Source: Dysgonomonas sp. 25 (GTDB lineage Bacteria; Bacteroidota; Bacteroidia; Bacteroidales; Dysgonomonadaceae). Taken from it: 64,000 nt of DNA. Each line of letters opens with the position of its first letter. The stretch's first letter is position 1. Shown piece by piece: positions 55,378 to 61,203 of the stretch. A program made the position numbers and the translations under genes. The stretch is taken from positions 62,001 to 126,000 of the forward strand of contig NZ_QVMN01000007.1 of NCBI RefSeq assembly GCF_010501075.1. Direction: 5' to 3'. Under the pieces are notes generated by a model. It was not told the DNA's origin and ran no database searches. It saw only the letters and a program-made list of their open reading frames with translations.

Positions 55378-57945
55378 ATGAATAAAAGCATTGGATATAA
55401 CAGTTTGCTGAAAAGTACCTGTGCACTTTTATTGTTATTACTTTTTATAACAACAAACGCCTTTTCACAAAACACAACTACTATCAAAGGAGTTGTCAAA
55501 GACTCTGTCACGCAGGAATTACTACCCTATGTGACTATCAAGTTTGCCGGTACGACTATTGGGGACTACTCCGGCGAGGATGGAACTTTCCGCATCAGTA
55601 ATAATCAGAATAAAACGGAAGTTATTGTATCCTTTCTGGGGTATAAGAGTGCCAAGTTTACGATACCGGCAGGTAAAACGACTACGAAGGAAGTGTTGCT
55701 CGTAACGGAGGATAAAACACTGAATGAGGTAGTTATCCGTCCTACTAAAGAAAAATATTCCAAGAAGAACAATCCGGCTGTCGAATTGATACAAAATGTA
55801 ATCAAGTATAAAAAGAAGAACGGATTTCAGGCCGAAGAATATTATCAATGTAAAGAATATGAGCGTATTCTGTTTGCACTGAACGAATTTAAGCCGGATA
55901 AAGCCCAGTTCAAGAAGTTTAAGTTCCTGCCGAATTATATGGTAACGTCGGAAATCGATAACAAGCCGATTTTGCCTTTCTCGGTGCGCGAAACAATCAG
56001 CGACTACTATTACCGGAAAGATCCGAAAACCGAAAGGCGTATCGTTCAGGCATACGATCAGGCTGGTATCGATAAGGCAATGGAGCTGGAAGGGTTGGAT
56101 GTTGTTATTAATGAGGTGTTTAAGGATGTAAATGTGTATGATAATTCCATTACTTTGCTGTTTCAGGAATTTGTCAGCCCGTTGAGTGAGCATCGTGCGG
56201 TCAGCTTCTTCAAATGGTATATTACGGATACGGTGACGGTAGACGATAAAAAATATACGCGTCTGGACTTTGTTCCCTTCAATACGCGCGATATCGGCTT
56301 CATCGGGAATATGCTTGTCACCACAGACAGCACGTATGCAGTGAAGAAAGTGACATTGCGGGTACCTACCAAATCGAATATCAACTTTGTGGACGAAATG
56401 GTGGTACAGCAGGATTTTCAGAAGGCAGAGGATGGAAAATGGATTCCCGAGAAACAGCAGATGTCCATTGACCTCTCGCTATATCAGCAGATAAAAATAT
56501 ATGTCGATAAGACCAGGGAATTCAGCGATTTTGTCTATAACGAGCCGCAGGATTCTATCTATTCCATAAAAGCTCCCATTACTTTTGTCGAGGATTTCAA
56601 CGATAAGGACAAAACGTTCTGGGACGAGAACCGTCCGGCGGATCAGCACGTAGACTACCGTATGGACGAGTTGATGGATGAACTTACGAATATCGGCTTT
56701 TTGAAATTCTTTATCAATTTCGGGAAATTTATGGGTAGCGGAGGATATATCCGCACCAACAAAGATCCGGAGAAGAACAAAGTCGATTTGGGAACGGCTT
56801 TCACGGCATACAGTTACAATTCGGTCGAAGGAAACCGTTTGCGTCTCACAGCCCGTACAACACCTAATTTCAATAAGCATCTTTTCCTGTATGGATATGC
56901 CGCTTATGGAACGAAGGACGGACGCCCTAAATACTATGGTGAGGCTACGTGGTCGTTCAAAGAGCAGAAAAAGAATAAAGATGAGTTCCCCAAGAATAAT
57001 CTGGTTGTGGGCTACAAATATGATATGAATAGTCTCGGTCAGCGTTTTACGCAGAACGAACGCGACAATATATTCGGTTCGATAAGTTCGACAAAGAACG
57101 AGAAATTTACCTATAATCGTCAAACACTTGTATCATGGGAGCGGGAGTTCTATAATGGTTTCTCTTTCGCGCTGAAAGGGCAGACTTTCGACGAACGCCC
57201 TGCCGGAAAGCTGAAATTTGAGCGGTTGGATGATTTGAATAACATCATTCCCGAGAATAGTATCCGCACCACTGAGGCGACATTGTCGCTGCGGTATGCT
57301 CCAAATGAGAAATTCTATCAGCATCACCGTACCCGCTACGATGTACCTTCGCCGGGTTATTCTGTGATTCTATCGCATACTAACGGTCTGAAAGGTGTTC
57401 TGGGTGGACAATACGATTACTACAAGTCATCGCTGATGTTCGAAGGACGCCTGTGGGTAGCGCAGTTCGGTAAGATAACCACTAATATACAAGCCGAAAA
57501 AGTATGGGGCGAAGTACCTTTCCCGCTTTTGTTGTCGCCCAATGCCAATAGCTCGTATTTGCTTCAAAAAGGAGACTTTTATCTGGTCGAACCGCTTGAA
57601 TTCCTTCACGATAAGCAAATTACGTGGGATGTGGAATGGCAGATGGGAGGATATATCTTCAATCGCATACCTTTGATTAACAGGCTCAAATTGAGAGAGG
57701 TGTTTGGTCTTAGAGGGGCATGGGGAGATCTCGACGAAAGAAATGATCCGACCAAGAATCACGATTTACTGATATTCCCGAATGCAGCCTTTAAAGCTGA
57801 TAATAAGCCTTATATGGAATATACTGTCGGGGTGGAGAATATTTTGAGTTTCATCCGGATTGATTATGTCCGTAGGATTAACTACCGCAATCATCCCGAT
57901 ATAAATAAGAGTGGGGTACGTTTTTCGCTTAAATTTACATTCTAA
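55378..57945 (+). CDS. DUF5686 / carboxypeptidase-regulatory-like outer-membrane protein
   Basis: An 855-residue outer-membrane protein. After a signal peptide (ending NAFSQN) residues 30-115 form a carboxypeptidase-regulatory-like domain (TTIKGVVKDSVTQELLPYVT, FRISNNQNKTEVIVSFLGYKS). The rest fits DUF5686, a Bacteroidota family with a beta-barrel (repeated aromatic-ended strands such as YAAYGTKDGRPKYYGEATWSFKE, and the last strand SGVRFSLKFTF). The terminal Phe fits BAM recognition. No SusD-like partner is encoded beside it and the transported substrate is unknown. Confidence 0.85.
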   Translation: MNKSIGYNSLLKSTCALLLLLLFITTNAFSQNTTTIKGVVKDSVTQELLPYVTIKFAGTTIGDYSGEDGTFRISNNQNKTEVIVSFLGYKSAKFTIPAGKTTTKEVLLVTEDKTLNEVVIRPTKEKYSKKNNPAVELIQNVIKYKKKNGFQAEEYYQCKEYERILFALNEFKPDKAQFKKFKFLPNYMVTSEIDNKPILPFSVRETISDYYYRKDPKTERRIVQAYDQAGIDKAMELEGLDVVINEVFKDVNVYDNSITLLFQEFVSPLSEHRAVSFFKWYITDTVTVDDKKYTRLDFVPFNTRDIGFIGNMLVTTDSTYAVKKVTLRVPTKSNINFVDEMVVQQDFQKAEDGKWIPEKQQMSIDLSLYQQIKIYVDKTREFSDFVYNEPQDSIYSIKAPITFVEDFNDKDKTFWDENRPADQHVDYRMDELMDELTNIGFLKFFINFGKFMGSGGYIRTNKDPEKNKVDLGTAFTAYSYNSVEGNRLRLTARTTPNFNKHLFLYGYAAYGTKDGRPKYYGEATWSFKEQKKNKDEFPKNNLVVGYKYDMNSLGQRFTQNERDNIFGSISSTKNEKFTYNRQTLVSWEREFYNGFSFALKGQTFDERPAGKLKFERLDDLNNIIPENSIRTTEATLSLRYAPNEKFYQHHRTRYDVPSPGYSVILSHTNGLKGVLGGQYDYYKSSLMFEGRLWVAQFGKITTNIQAEKVWGEVPFPLLLSPNANSSYLLQKGDFYLVEPLEFLHDKQITWDVEWQMGGYIFNRIPLINRLKLREVFGLRGAWGDLDERNDPTKNHDLLIFPNAAFKADNKPYMEYTVGVENILSFIRIDYVRRINYRNHPDINKSGVRFSLKFTF

Positions 57946-57972
57946 AAGAGAATGTAATTCGAGGAAATATTT

Positions 57973-57980
57973 TATCTTTG
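57973..57980 (+). promoter_or_regulatory. -7 element of tRNA-Ala
   Basis: TATCTTTG ends nine bases before the tRNA 5' end. Confidence 0.65.
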
Positions 57981-57989
57981 TATCCGATT

Positions 57990-58063
57990 GGGGAATTAGC
58001 TCATCTGGCTAGAGCGCAACGCTGGCAGTGTTGAGGTGATCGGTTCGAGTCCGATATTCTCCA
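57990..58063 (+). tRNA. tRNA-Ala (anticodon GGC)
   Basis: A 74-base cloverleaf without encoded CCA. Acceptor stem GGGGAAT pairs with ATTCTCC (one G-T), anticodon stem CAACG/TGTTG encloses the loop CTGGCAG with anticodon GGC, and the T arm ATCGG-TTCGAGT-CCGAT is perfect. It is followed directly by a terminator and by the accessory gene array described below. Confidence 0.95.
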
Positions 58064-58110
58064 CAAATTGAATCCTCAGACAGAAATGTTTGGGGATTTT
58101 TATTTTTGTT
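58043..58110 (+). repeat. Parent copy: tRNA-Ala 3' end plus terminator
   Basis: The T-loop TTCGAG, the CTCCAC end, the following AATTGAATCC and the whole terminator hairpin reappear in degenerate form at 58866-58936, 59143-59217 and 59546-59611. This copy belongs to the intact tRNA gene and does not carry the promoter-like half seen in the others. Confidence 0.8.
58071..58103 (+). terminator. Terminator of tRNA-Ala
   Basis: Stem of 12 pairs with two G-T pairs (58071-58082 with 58087-58098), GAAA loop, and a run of T. Found again in the downstream repeats. Confidence 0.9.
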
Positions 58111-58131
58111 TTGAAACAGAAAAAAAGCATT

Positions 58132-58812
58132 ATGATAGAAATGTTGAAGGACAAAAAAAGTATAAAAATATCTAATATAGACACTTTTAGAAAAATTGAA
58201 CTTCCAATTGAACCCGAATTAATAGAAACACTGTTTATTACAGGTTCTTTTATAGATGATTTCTCTTTCTTAGAAAGAATGAGAGAAATAAAAAAACTTG
58301 TATTCTTAGCCTGCAAAAGTGATATTTGGGAGGAACTTAAAGGAAATATATCAATAAAAATTTTACGATTACATAATATAAAACGAGGTAAATTTTATTT
58401 AAATAATATTGATTTTATAAATACATTCCCTTCTTTAGAATATTTATACATCAACATGTTGGGTATAACAGAATTTCCTGATATCGTAAAGCTTGAAAGG
58501 TTACATACAATTTGTAGCTCAAACAGAAACCTGGTGGACTTTTCAACTTTGGAATATGTCCCAAATCTACAAACATTTATTGGTTGGGCTGCAGTTGACA
58601 AACATCGAACTCCTGCAGAAGCTTTTATTCCAATACTTAAGAATACTAAATTGAAGGCTTTTAATTACTCTCAAATGTTTAATGTTGAAAAGAAAAAATT
58701 AAAGAAATATGTAGATTTGTATTGTCCTAATATTTTATACCCCATGTCTACTTTCGAAGGAATTGTTGTAGATAACAGAAAAGTCATGGACATTATAAAG
58801 TTATTTTTCTAA
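58132..58812 (+). CDS. Hypothetical leucine-rich-repeat-like protein
   Basis: A 226-residue protein of unknown function (Met at 58141 is an alternative start). It is AT-rich and unlike its neighbours in base composition. The sequence has leucine/isoleucine-rich units spaced by 20-25 residues (PLEYLYINMLGITEFPDIVKLERL-like: SLEYLYINMLGITEF, ERLHTICSS, FSTLEYVPNLQTFIGWA), suggesting an LRR-type solenoid such as those in Bacteroidota immunity-like proteins, but this is only a guess. It is the only plus-strand gene of the cassette array, and it ends 12 bases before the second repeat copy. Confidence 0.75.
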   Translation: MIEMLKDKKSIKISNIDTFRKIELPIEPELIETLFITGSFIDDFSFLERMREIKKLVFLACKSDIWEELKGNISIKILRLHNIKRGKFYLNNIDFINTFPSLEYLYINMLGITEFPDIVKLERLHTICSSNRNLVDFSTLEYVPNLQTFIGWAAVDKHRTPAEAFIPILKNTKLKAFNYSQMFNVEKKKLKKYVDLYCPNILYPMSTFEGIVVDNRKVMDIIKLFF

Positions 58813-58823
58813 TTATAAAAATT

Positions 58824-58936
58824 TATAAAGCTAACAATATTCTACCAATCCTCACAAAAAGAGTTCGAGCCTTTGGTGCTGTGCTCCACAGAATTTAGAA
58901 TCCTCAGGCAGAAATGCTTGGGGATTTTATTTTTTT
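58824..58936 (-). repeat. Composite repeat copy 2 (promoter-like half and tRNA-terminator half)
   Basis: Begins TATAAAGCTAACAATATTCT, followed by a CAATCCTCACAAAAAG block, GTTCGAGCCTTTGGTGCTG, GCTCCAC and a hairpin ending in TTTT at about 58930. On the minus strand the first half reads TTTG, 21 bases, TAGCTTTA. The hairpin has AATCCTCAGGCA/TGCTTGGGGATT: relative to the tRNA copy both members of one pair changed (A-T to G-C), keeping the stem. Confidence 0.85.
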
Positions 58937-59082
58937 CTTCTGCTACTTATTTTGGCTCTCTTTATGCCTTTCTTCTTAGCCCATAAATTCAAATCAGAGT
59001 TTTTATCTTTATACTGTTCCTCCAATTCTTGTTTTGTTAACCTTCTAAAATTCTTTATTGTTATGTGAATGCTTCTTGACAT
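58927..59082 (-). CDS. Small basic protein of the cassette array
   Basis: A 51-residue open frame: MSRSIHITIKNFRRLTKQ, then ELEEQYKDKNSDLNLWAKKK and a run of Lys/Arg/Ser ending RRKK (isolated here as separate short pieces). It starts 27 bases after the promoter-like element of the 59107 repeat and its stop codon overlaps the T run of the hairpin of the 58824 repeat. The charged helical layout reminds me of short conserved Bacteroidota proteins found near immunity-like genes, but no function is known. Its fit between the two repeats, rather than family similarity, is the main evidence that it is real. Confidence 0.6.
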   Translation of the reverse strand: MSRSIHITIKNFRRLTKQELEEQYKDKNSDLNLWAKKKGIKRAKISSRRKK

Positions 59083-59106
59083 ATAGAATGATAATTATAT
59101 ACTTTC

Positions 59107-59217
59107 TATAAAGCTAACAATTTTCTCCCAATCCTCACAAAAAGAGTTCGAGCCTTTGGTGCTGTGCTCCACGAATTGAATCCTCAGACAGAAATGTTTT
59201 GGGGGGGGTATTTTTAT
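59107..59217 (-). repeat. Composite repeat copy 3
   Basis: Begins TATAAAGCTAACAATTTTCT, followed by CCAATCCTCACAAAAAG, GTTCGAGCCTTTGGTGCTG, GCTCCACGAATTGAATCC and a hairpin in which TTTTGGGGGGGG replaces TTTGGGGATT. Minus-strand reading: TTTG, 21 bases, TAGCTTTA (59109-59116). The G run is eight long. Confidence 0.85.
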
Positions 59218-59486
59218 TCAGAAGATTCGGGGTATTCGGAGAAATAAACGTCCATTCCAATATCTCCCATTATTTTCATAGATTCAGAACTTAATACCGC
59301 TCCTCCTCCCGTAGCATCTTTTCTTATATCGAAACCAATATCAGCAACATATGAACCTTTTGGCAATATAACTCCTTTTGTTTGAAGCCATTTTTCTAAT
59401 GAATCAATCTGATTTGGTAAATCCCAAATATCTTCACATAAATAATCAATACGTTCAAAATTGTCAATGTAAATATTTATTGGCAT
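59214..59486 (-). CDS. Hypothetical protein of the cassette array (90 aa)
   Basis: A 90-residue acidic protein with no signal peptide or membrane helix (MPINIYIDNFERIDYL, DLPNQIDSLEKWLQTKG, PKGSYVADIGFDIRKDAT). I do not recognise a family; the size and compact acidic nature recall immunity proteins, but this is a guess. Its start is 23 bases after the TAGCTTTA element of the 59507 repeat, and its stop touches the T run of the 59107 repeat. Confidence 0.7.
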   Translation of the reverse strand: MPINIYIDNFERIDYLCEDIWDLPNQIDSLEKWLQTKGVILPKGSYVADIGFDIRKDATGGGAVLSSESMKIMGDIGMDVYFSEYPESSE

Positions 59487-59506
59487 AGTTATTAGTTAAT
59501 ATTTTC

Positions 59507-59611
59507 CATAAAGCTAACAATTTTCACCCAATCCTCCCACAAACAGAGTTCGAGCCTTTGCTGCTGTGCTCCATGAATTGAATCTTCAGACAGAAATGTT
59601 TGGGGATTTTA
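59507..59611 (-). repeat. Composite repeat copy 4
   Basis: Begins CATAAAGCTAACAATTTTCA, followed by CCCAATCCTCCCACAAACAG, GTTCGAGCCTTTGCTGCTG, GCTCCATGAATTGAATC and a hairpin AATCTTCAGACA/TGTTTGGGGATT, which keeps a G-T pair where the tRNA copy has G-C. The promoter-like spacing here is 23, two more than the other copies. Confidence 0.85.
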
Positions 59612-60241
59612 TCTTATAATTGTACCATAATAACCAAAATCATGGCTTAAAATATTTCCTGTTACAGCATCAATTATACAATATTCAGTTTCTCCAGTAT
59701 CTTTTCCCATTTCATTCTTATACTGTGTCAATATATTAGTAATAGTATATACATATACATTAAAATGATTGTTAAATTTTAGCTCCGGCTCTAATACTTT
59801 TATTCCTTTTTTATTCAATATTTTTTTTGCTTTGTCTAATATTAATGTAGGACTAATAAAATTTGAAGATTTTCCTTCAAGTAAGAAATCAGGTATAAAT
59901 TTATAATCAAGAGCTTCTGTTAGTTCTAACTTAGAGTTGAGTTTTACCCACATACCTCCCCTTATCCCATCAATATGAGAATATTTAAATGAATATAAAA
60001 CCCATATTTCATTAATTGCGCCTTTTATTGCTTTTTTCTTCAAGAATTTACTTGTATGATTCTTCACATCAGTATAATAAGAACCTTCTGATATATCGAA
60101 ATATTGAAATAAAGAATCTCCTACAGTTTTTCTTACTATATCATTAGATACACTTATAATATCTTCTACCATAATTTTTTGTGCAGATAGAATTGAAGGT
60201 ATAAGCAAGAAAATGCAAATAACTACTTTTACATTTTTCAT
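59609..60241 (-). CDS. Exported hypothetical protein of the cassette array (210 aa)
   Basis: A 210-residue protein with a signal peptide (FLLIPSILSAQ). The remainder contains IWVLYSFKYSHIDGIRGGMWVKLNSKLELTEALDY (split by strands) and the C-terminal TEYCIIDAVTGNILSHDFGYYG, which resembles a PepSY-like beta/alpha unit. AT-rich like the other cassette genes. Starts 20 bases after the promoter-like block at 60259-60268 and stops immediately beside the hairpin of the 59507 copy. Confidence 0.78.
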   Translation of the reverse strand: MKNVKVVICIFLLIPSILSAQKIMVEDIISVSNDIVRKTVGDSLFQYFDISEGSYYTDVKNHTSKFLKKKAIKGAINEIWVLYSFKYSHIDGIRGGMWVKLNSKLELTEALDYKFIPDFLLEGKSSNFISPTLILDKAKKILNKKGIKVLEPELKFNNHFNVYVYTITNILTQYKNEMGKDTGETEYCIIDAVTGNILSHDFGYYGTIIR

Positions 60242-60258
60242 ATAATTTATTTTTGTTC

Positions 60259-60299
60259 CATAAAGCTAACAATTTCCTCTCAATCCCCACAAAAAGACC
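60259..60299 (-). repeat. Composite repeat copy 5, promoter half only
   Basis: CATAAAGCTAACAATTTCCTCTCAATCCCCACAAAAAG-type block; on the minus strand TTTG, 21 bases, TAGCTTTA. The tRNA-like and hairpin halves are missing here, so the promoter-like half can be separated from them. Confidence 0.75.
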
Positions 60300-60307
60300 T
60301 TGACGTT

Positions 60308-60871
60308 TTAGTGGCAAAAATCCTCCTTTTCAATTTTAATAGCCTGAGGGATTGAGCTTTTTCTATGCTCAATCAACTTCCATATTTCACGGTTGCTGCT
60401 AAAAACAGTTATGCCTGTTCCTTTTTTAATAGTAATATTCGAAATCGTATCTTTTGGCATATCCTTGTAATGGGTAGCGATAGTACATTGCAATAAACTG
60501 TCGGTTTGTTCAGTTTTGTATTGATACTTGTTGCAAAGGAAAAAATGTATGTCTGAAGCACCAATTTCGTTGGAAAAATACCGAAAACTGATATCTAAAG
60601 AATCACTTCCCCCTTTGACAAGCAGGTTTATTCTGTCATTGCATCCACCGCATTTACTATTGGCCGGATAATTATTCATATGGTGGGCTACATAAGAATG
60701 AATAACATATTCTCTATATCCGCTATCATTCCCCAAAATGATAGTATCCCCCTCCTGATAAGGTATCCATTCCGTATAGGTAGTGTTGAAAGGTGGGCAT
60801 TTGATCATTGTCTTACACGATATGAAGCAAAATGAAACTAAAAGGACAAACAGATATAATTTATTTCTCAT
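60308..60871 (-). CDS. Lipoprotein of unknown function
   Basis: A 187-residue protein with a lipobox (FCFISC). The mature part is beta-rich (IPYQEGDTIILGN, YREYVIHSYVAHHMNN, SDSLDISFRYFSNEIG) and contains a CGGC pair (SKCGGCNDR). It may be the oldest member of the array or simply a neighbour; it has its own -7 element (60908-60915) rather than a full repeat. Start trimmed three codons to MRNKLYLF. Confidence 0.78.
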   Translation of the reverse strand: MRNKLYLFVLLVSFCFISCKTMIKCPPFNTTYTEWIPYQEGDTIILGNDSGYREYVIHSYVAHHMNNYPANSKCGGCNDRINLLVKGGSDSLDISFRYFSNEIGASDIHFFLCNKYQYKTEQTDSLLQCTIATHYKDMPKDTISNITIKKGTGITVFSSNREIWKLIEHRKSSIPQAIKIEKEDFCH

Positions 60872-61002: not shown

Positions 61003-61203
61003 ATGAAACTATATTCGGTACTTTCCTATATAAGCCTTGCCCTATTTGCTTCCAGCATTATCCTCTGGTACATATCGGGCAATTACATGAAAGAGCGGAA
61101 ACCTGCTCTATCGCGGAAGGTGACCTATATAGGCGGGTTTATGTTCTCTTTCGCTATTTTTGGCGGTCTGGTAGCCTTGATTCTTTGGGCTACTGCCGGA
61201 TAG
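61003..61203 (+). CDS. Small two-helix membrane protein
   Basis: A 66-residue protein with two hydrophobic helices (residues 6-26 and 42-63) and a short charged loop NYMKERKPALSRK between them. No family known to me. Both ends would face the same side. The frame is clean between the two adjacent, oppositely directed units. Confidence 0.6.
   Translation: MKLYSVLSYISLALFASSIILWYISGNYMKERKPALSRKVTYIGGFMFSFAIFGGLVALILWATAG

Follow-up and report, generated by a model that had tools for sequence, protein, structure and literature searches.

Why should a tRNA gene be followed by a file of small genes, unrelated to one another and separated by copies of the tRNA's own 3′ end? This is the question raised by a locus in a 64,000-nucleotide stretch of Dysgonomonas sp. 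25 (contig NZ_QVMN01000007.1, positions 62,001 to 126,000; hereafter the window, in whose coordinates positions are given), where tRNA-Ala(GGC) heads a tandem array of four cassettes. We argue, at a probability of about 0.72, that these cassettes are single-gene derivatives of elements encoding a large serine recombinase (LSR), stacked at the tRNA 3′ end by site-specific integration. Each unit consists of a left end, T (a terminator hairpin), one gene, and a right end, P (a conserved arm of ~66 nt, or ~57 nt without its tRNA-like tail); P of one unit and T of the following unit together form a full repeat. The same units turn up in other arrays, and one pair of genomes shows them swapped between P and T. 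The locus is laid out as follows, with open reading frames (ORFs) given by the length of their product in amino acids (aa):

57990..58064, plus strand: tRNA-Ala(GGC), its 3′ end the putative attachment (att) site attB/attL (ARAGORN; Rfam RF00005)
58059..58112 (end approximate), plus strand: tRNA 3′ end and terminator hairpin T, left end of cassette 1 (fold -16.9 kcal/mol)
58132..58812, plus strand: cassette 1, 226-aa protein, sense to the tRNA (ORF; weak leucine-rich-repeat match to LRR_4, E 5.6e-5, below the Pfam cut-off)
58824..58889, plus strand: P arm 1, with tRNA-like tail CTCCAC (arm profile 70.3 bits)
58890..58933 (end approximate), plus strand: T hairpin after P arm 1, left end of cassette 2 (repeat alignment, RNA fold)
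58927..59082, minus strand: cassette 2, 51-aa protein (92% aa identity to a cassette at locus L056 of genome G031)
59107..59172, plus strand: P arm 2, promoter-like on the minus strand (arm profile 76.0 bits)
59173..59214 (end approximate), plus strand: T hairpin after P arm 2, left end of cassette 3 (repeat alignment)
59214..59486, minus strand: cassette 3, 90-aa protein (79% aa identity to the first cassette of the oxyR-tRNA-Ala array in G003)
59507..59574, plus strand: P arm 3 (arm profile 60.1 bits)
59575..59615 (end approximate), plus strand: T hairpin after P arm 3, left end of cassette 4 (repeat alignment, RNA fold)
59609..60241, minus strand: cassette 4, 210-aa protein (weak PepSY match, E 2.9e-4, below cut-off; signal-peptide-like N-terminus by eye)
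60259..60316, plus strand: P arm 4, without T, right end of the array (arm profile 33.2 bits)
60308..60871, minus strand: right-flank gene, 187 aa, with no P match upstream, probably on the chromosome side (ORF, Pfam, arm profile)
61003..61203, plus strand: right-flank gene, 66 aa (a homologue in G010, 59% identical, adjoins a decayed LSR element at a tRNA-Ala fragment)

An initial annotation of the window had described three full repeats and one half copy downstream of the tRNA, and repeat alignment and arm-profile scores bear this out: direct repeats begin at 58824, 59107, and ~59507, with the half copy at 60259. Against the scores listed for the four copies, the next-best place in the 64 kb reaches 3.4 bits, and 200 Markov shuffles of the region yielded ten arm-profile matches, the best at 9.7 bits; the profile was built partly from the window's own copies, and such profiles score the loci they were trained on. 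Within its own genome the repeat is confined to this locus, a sixth match elsewhere being at chance level (E 0.65). The P consensus from 23 sequences of several genomes is nATAAAGCTAACAATTTTCTCAnAATCCTCACAAAAAGAGTTCGAGACTTTGGTGCTnTGCTCCAC, the last six letters of which are the tRNA-Ala 3′ end plus the base after it. P is followed by T, as is the tRNA itself. Homology to the tRNA end and terminator, previously assigned to an entire half of the repeat, stands for the hairpin, TTCGAG, and the last ~six nucleotides of each full copy (CTCCAC; CTCCAT in repeat 3), with nothing strict beyond. The longest exact runs in common with the tRNA end measure 11, 26, and 25 nt in repeats 1–3 and 7 nt in the half copy, values for which a random-place null is spoilt because random places can fall on other copies. 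As tRNA-sense RNA, the tRNA's own T and repeats 1 and 3 fold at -16.9, -23.3, and -13.9 kcal/mol (z -3.8, -5.9, and -2.1), and repeat 3 in gene direction at only -2.7 kcal/mol. Because it is strong only as plus-strand RNA, the hairpin looks like the terminator of the tRNA rather than that of the minus-strand genes. An Rfam scan of the region returned the tRNA only.

The genes between the repeats are AT-rich, as had been noted: the array has a GC content of 29.3%, compared to 43.1% for the window (with sampling in steps of 250 bp, the lowest value for 2236 bp was 30.0%, in a stretch that may overlap the array). Three of them lie on the minus strand, start 25, 21, and 18 nt from a P arm, and end at a hairpin, in keeping with the earlier description; the array is not wholly minus-strand, however, because the first gene (58132-58812) is encoded on the plus strand. 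An ORF lies close to the left of 31 of the 32 P arms at 16 loci: 23 are antisense and eight sense to the tRNA, the choice of ORF being mechanical and sometimes wrong (one of the eight sense ORFs, at L056, overlaps an antisense homologue of the window's 51-aa gene, g51). Antisense ORFs mostly start -13 to 26 nt from P (20/23). Together with the spacing of TTTG and TAnnTTT, this placement fits a Bacteroidota promoter, and P probably also drives its gene through a promoter of the -33/-7 type. Met-type arms have no TTTG; attachment and promoter roles can therefore separate. A second P-like motif, AATTCATAAATTAA.CTAAATCTTCAAGAAATTGGTTCGAGAA, lies beside P arms at L148:11280-11360 and L121, with only its beginning found after P at L120; this is perhaps an older attachment arm of another type.

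How widespread are such arrays, and do their cassettes move? At an E value of 0.01, the 107-nt repeat matches 14 of 25 genus genomes and 22 of 101 family genomes (own genome counted), while a pattern scan of named genomes returned six records, all Dysgonomonas, and viral contigs gave 0 exact pattern matches. An order-wide scan with the arm profile at the same threshold hit 48 of 393 genomes, most of them at 1e-4 to 1e-2, a range we regard as noise; beyond the family, G433 (1.3e-11) is the sole solid match, and G299 (8.4e-5) draws support from its element. The arrays of relatives sit at tRNA-Ala(GGC) in different chromosomal settings and carry other small genes. From sequence, we take their flanks to be lpxC-like (L044, L046, L050), oxyR-like (L045, L052, L119), or ruvC-like (L055, L058), or to hold a UDP-glucose-dehydrogenase-like gene (L122); two further arrays (L056, L057) lie behind phage-like genes in stretches with no tRNA called. 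Among 50 ORFs from array regions delimited by hand, ten cassette clusters recur in at least two loci, one of which joins the near-identical L048 and L051, yet also has a member in G002. Additional to these, g51 recurs in G031 at the identity listed above; the window's 90-aa gene (g90) recurs in G003, likewise at the listed identity. The initial annotation had named the same genes in the same order in all relatives as an outcome that would tell against cassette gain, and this was not seen. Cassette genes change in the manner of protein-coding sequence: counts of differences at codon positions 1, 2, and 3 are 3, 1, and 10 between g51 and its L056 homologue and 240, 154, and 491 over 12 pairs (1419 codons), with 3, 3, and 3 in the near-identical c185 pair.

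Exchange at a single site can be followed between two relatives. The chromosomal neighbour of the window tRNA is DUF5686/creD (Pfam), and this neighbourhood (55378-58064) is shared by none of the 20 relatives checked; in 20 of 23 relatives with a DUF5686 match, no tRNA-Ala lies in the 3.4–4.1 kb at the 3′ end of the gene, the absent synteny being a sign of rearrangement at this tRNA. Because the window synteny is not shared, the oxyR-tRNA-Ala site served for the empty-site comparison. The oxyR gene is present in 24 of 25 genomes, and tRNA-Ala(GGC) follows it in 14 of the 24 stretches, which include L119, L128, L129, and L136 (no tRNA-Ala called in ten). A P arm lies downstream in six of these 14 (G002, G003, G005, G009, G020, and G021), with no P within the stretch covered in the remaining eight, three of which are short contig ends. 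In G002 and G020, the left flanks are 94.5% identical over 1202 bp, ending 46 bp past the tRNA, and the right flanks 93.4% identical over 4182 bp after the array. Between them lie 620 bp with one cassette in G002 versus 1736 bp with four different cassettes in G020, none common to both, and the right homology begins 7 nt (G002) and 40 nt (G020) past the last P match. The repeat-bounded difference between related genomes that had been proposed as a check is thus seen in one pair, between the tRNA terminator and the last P.

Might such differences arise from RecA-dependent homologous recombination between the repeats, with an LSR having only founded the site and unequal exchange shuffling the cassettes ever since? 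The repeats are ~105 bp long, two window arms are 97% alike, and arms are slightly more alike within arrays than between genomes (0.776 versus 0.715; 10 of 5000 permutations as high), all of which would suit such a process. Yet G002 and G020 have no cassette in common at this site, the same cassettes occur at tRNA-Ala loci with unrelated flanks, arms from different genomes are only ~71% alike, and P arms end in the 3′ ends of different tRNAs. We consider this explanation unlikely.

Which enzyme, then, would have integrated the cassettes? No integrase is encoded in the window, as the initial annotation had stated: there is no tyrosine recombinase domain in these 64 kb and no LSR domain in the entire genome. 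Going beyond that annotation, we propose that the recombinase is probably an LSR absent from this genome. At L128 (G021), an LSR (Resolvase 7.7e-18, Recombinase 1.8e-8) ends inside tRNA-Ala and is followed by ORFs including a 55-aa ORF, a small serine recombinase, a NUMOD3 protein, a 387-aa protein, and a 116-aa cassette gene. The right end comprises a P arm (L053 is the same place; 95% identical to a 40-nt window query), 45 nt that repeat the tRNA end exactly, hairpin included (the best of 290 random places gave 9 nt), and then the remnant of a second LSR. The gene next to P is a member of a cassette family with a representative in L046. At L148 (G090), an LSR lies at tRNA-Leu(TAG), with P at the far end and then an exact 48-nt tRNA-end repeat with terminator (best of 292 random places, 12 nt). 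L135 (G299, from another family) repeats the plan at tRNA-Ala(CGC), P being followed by TCCAC and no longer repeat. The distance from tRNA to P is ~6 kb (L128), ~8 kb (L148), and ~5 kb (L135); scanning between LSR and P for tRNA ends gave no further copy in L128 and, in L148, just two places at chance level, where one or two 12-mers matched. In a tRNA-Met cassette (L126), P precedes 21 nt that repeat the tRNA-Met end exactly (random places gave at most 10 nt), and an LSR lies at tRNA-Met in G090. Two routes had initially been offered for the array. Duplication of a tRNA-terminator/promoter unit fails to explain why tRNA-Met and tRNA-Leu P arms end in the 3′ end of their own tRNA, while serial integration at the tRNA 3′ end is supported by the G002/G020 exchange, the recurring cassettes, and the LSR elements with related P arms and tRNA-end direct repeats.

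Relatives of the LSR gave ten matches in seven of 101 family genomes (1e-20) and eight matches in seven of 393 order genomes (1e-60), and their targets include tRNA-Ala, -Met, -Leu, and others. Twelve of 18 LSR loci overlap an antisense tRNA, the stop codon falling inside the tRNA in ten; one of the rest lies 79 bp from a tRNA, and five have no tRNA called. One of these five, in G010, is a C-terminal LSR remnant next to a tRNA-Ala fragment, beside the homologue of the 66-aa right-flank gene (59%), and represents such an element in decay, in a neighbourhood that may be related. A small serine recombinase accompanies the LSR according to Pfam in L128, PHROGs in L148, and by the look of the sequence in L135 and L147. 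Proteins of 270–435 aa beside LSRs, four of the five compared being homologous, were considered as Rep-like and rejected, having no family support. The LSR of L148 had no match at 1e-30 in phage and plasmid records. LSR relatives in other Bacteroidales families (L246-L251) lie at tRNA-Ser, tRNA-Arg, tRNA-Leu, and tRNA-Met, some beside very large proteins; no P arm at E<0.1 and no attR was found there.

Alternatively, the cassettes might be moved by a tyrosine integrase from phages or islands that share this tRNA-Ala 3′ end as a target, leaving the LSR elements as just another user of the site. Tyrosine recombinases occur in all 12 array genomes; the window genome encodes 22 (PF00589, not typed as IntI), of which the nearest on this contig is ~108 kb away. 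Some lie near arrays or the tRNA: a tyrosine integrase at L132:4633-5643 (minus strand, G031; Phage_integrase E 1.4e-24) is 5.7 kb left of an array, another at L210:4335-5540 (minus strand, G007; E 6.2e-7) sits directly behind the oxyR tRNA-Ala, and, among the matches listed, a third is ~4 kb from the P arm of G001:C16. Scanning 18 array loci for motifs returned no tyrosine recombinase, but missed the one in L132. By these sequences, other elements evidently use tRNA-Ala too. However, L128, L148, and L135 are LSR elements with P at their far end, and in the first two no real tRNA-end copy intervenes; moreover, the joints at which phage-like genes run up against a tRNA-Ala fragment adjoining an array (L056, L057) lack a P arm. 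We consider a tyrosine integrase an unlikely mover of these cassettes, with a small probability left for one acting in trans.

Several observations weigh against LSR-mediated stacking. No recombination event was observed. An LSR domain is missing from the window genome (G000), and nine of the 12 array-carrying genus genomes (11 with P at E<1e-5, plus G002) have no PF07508 match, so that action in trans rests on transient helpers; the same 12 genomes hold 9 to 42 tyrosine recombinases each. Of the P matches at the oxyR site (E values 1.4e-10, 0.038, 8.9e-7, and 0.0092 in G020; 0.0027 in G002), two in G020 (0.038, 0.0092) and that in G002 are weak alone, as are those of L148 (0.02–0.03), L135 (8e-5 to 5e-4), L126 (2e-4 to 7e-4), and L134 (0.001–0.006), although their position lends such matches weight, as does the direct repeat in L126 and L148. 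L135 shares only TCCAC with its tRNA end, and L123 (tRNA-Met) only 8 nt, where chance gives 9. The higher likeness of arms within arrays, which stems mostly from the window's own, leaves room for gene conversion. The last window P is without T, and the T beside the same cassette, g90, differs between L043 and L045. Speaking for cassette units, in 13 homologous cassette pairs (genes 63–98% identical), the P side has a stretch of at least 60% in 11 and the tRNA side 60–110 nt out is at most 48% in 11 (c135 is similar far on both sides, c134 has a similar patch on the left and is poor on the right, and c191 is poor on the right), but since unrelated arms are ~71% alike, P-side likeness by itself adds little to the case that P and gene travel together. 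Finally, L121 (G012) and L125 (G433) are good solitary P arms, with no tRNA called in 19 kb and no adjoining left ORF of 50 aa. Repeats elsewhere without small genes, which the initial annotation had counted as adverse, were found in part, at these two loci; both are perhaps decayed or displaced cassettes.

If LSRs did build the array, how would it grow? P would be the attachment arm, and an LSR of the family found in the 5–8 kb P-ended elements would join a circular form, in which P is joined to T, with the tRNA 3′ end (attB). The crossover would fall within the last few tRNA nucleotides; it can be placed only inside the shared tract, at most TCCAC in L135. T, as the left end of the element, would bring a new terminator and the tRNA end would be restored, and because of this, the site would be reusable. 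Newer cassettes would insert next to the tRNA, pushing older ones away. The cassettes themselves would be LSR elements minus the integration module that keep cargo and att ends, and they might move in trans or together with a helper. More tentatively, and with the odds rather against it, the arrays could be a serine-integrase counterpart of integrons, wherein LSR helpers capture promoter-bearing single-gene cassettes and move them in trans into regenerating tRNA 3′ ends, the arm sets tRNA specificity, and Bacteroidales share an exchangeable pool of small genes.

What do the cassettes encode? Pfam matches among the cassettes are few and diverse (redoxin, GFA, hexapeptide transferase, acetyltransferase, EF-Tu domain 3, and beta-flower repeat). 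In the cassettes submitted to Pfam, NCBIfam, and PADLOC scans, no immunity family was found, and most match nothing. Predicted structures were too poor to search for related folds, with a mean predicted local distance difference test score (pLDDT) of 34.6 for the 210-aa and 52.8 for the 90-aa protein of the window, and a PDB sequence search gave nothing for the former and only E 0.7–1 for the latter. Two cassettes (L046:3725-4066 and L057:5168-5515) encode a stand-alone EF-Tu C-terminal domain (PF03143, E 2.1e-10 in L046). Because some interbacterial toxins use EF-Tu, a decoy role is a candidate function for these. Others contain KVYKGNST...DIVYTI-like units in varying repeat number (L052:4115-4477, L058:4397-5410, and, in reverse complement, L047 4100-4327), the L058 cassette belonging to the beta-flower family PF21786. 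In a different place, a 53-aa gene (81–85% identical) lies to the right of three arrays (L049:4673-4834, L050:6045-6206, and L057:4914-5075), which points to a chromosomal right flank common to them.

Integrons work alike, lining up unrelated small genes one by one with a single type of recombination site between them. Here, however, the site is a tRNA end, the cassettes seem to bring their own promoter, and no integron integrase was seen. Staphylococcal cassette chromosome (SCC) elements come to mind as well: the Leu-type LSR matches CcrB (E 1.4e-16), along with XisF (1.8e-19), far under the NCBIfam cut-offs; target and cargo differ.

Recombinase-associated acquired interbacterial defence (rAID) arrays combine a tyrosine recombinase with orphan immunity cargo in Bacteroidales (PMC12247911). 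Could the window hold such an array minus its recombinase, made of orphan immunity genes and conserved intergenic motifs? Short, AT-rich, mostly co-oriented and unrelated genes with conserved intergenic sequence in the same taxonomic order would be in line with this (PMC12247911). In rAID, however, the recombinase at the array is a tyrosine one, of which the 64-kb window has none (PF00589), whereas the element linked to the present arms has a serine one; PADLOC gave one chance-level match in ten cassettes (E 0.013), and the Pfam matches are varied. We regard this origin as very improbable.

The nearest parallels to LSR-mediated stacking may lie elsewhere. In Dehalococcoides, 16 units with and 15 without an integration module are described at ssrA, the latter suggested by the authors to be possible cis-mobilizable elements (CIMEs) (PMC3146451). 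Both systems place units in tandem behind an RNA gene whose 3′ end is copied at the unit boundaries, and both have a CcrB-like serine recombinase of ~540 aa beside attL on the reverse strand (PMC3146451); a second serine recombinase of ~200 aa is also shared, here in LSR relatives rather than in the window. In contrast to those islands, several tRNAs rather than ssrA are targeted, the other genes differ, and the units are single genes of a few hundred base pairs, with the conserved arm mostly 9–26 nt from the start of an antisense gene. Resemblance extends to CIMEs and tandem accretion, where integration and transfer genes are lost and attL and attR are kept, with elements stacked at one site (PMC5704250). 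Correspondingly, the four window array ORFs showed no match to an integrase or transfer-gene family, and their att ends are related to those of an autonomous element via the L128 P arm and the tRNA-end repeats, apart from the last P, without T. Unlike CIMEs, the units may never have carried transfer genes, are cassette-sized, four in number in the window and in G020, and reassort among species.

We found no description of such arrays in the literature searched, whose coverage leaves subscription papers mostly outside. In practical terms, the combination of tRNA end and P arm allows such cassettes to be delimited automatically, and LSRs that target tRNAs and have defined att ends could become tools in Bacteroidota. 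If true, the proposed origin means that tRNA islands can shrink to single-gene cassettes and still spread, and it would represent an independent route to integron-like function, starting from a serine recombinase and a tRNA end. For the Bacteroidales, this would offer a testable source of species-specific small genes.

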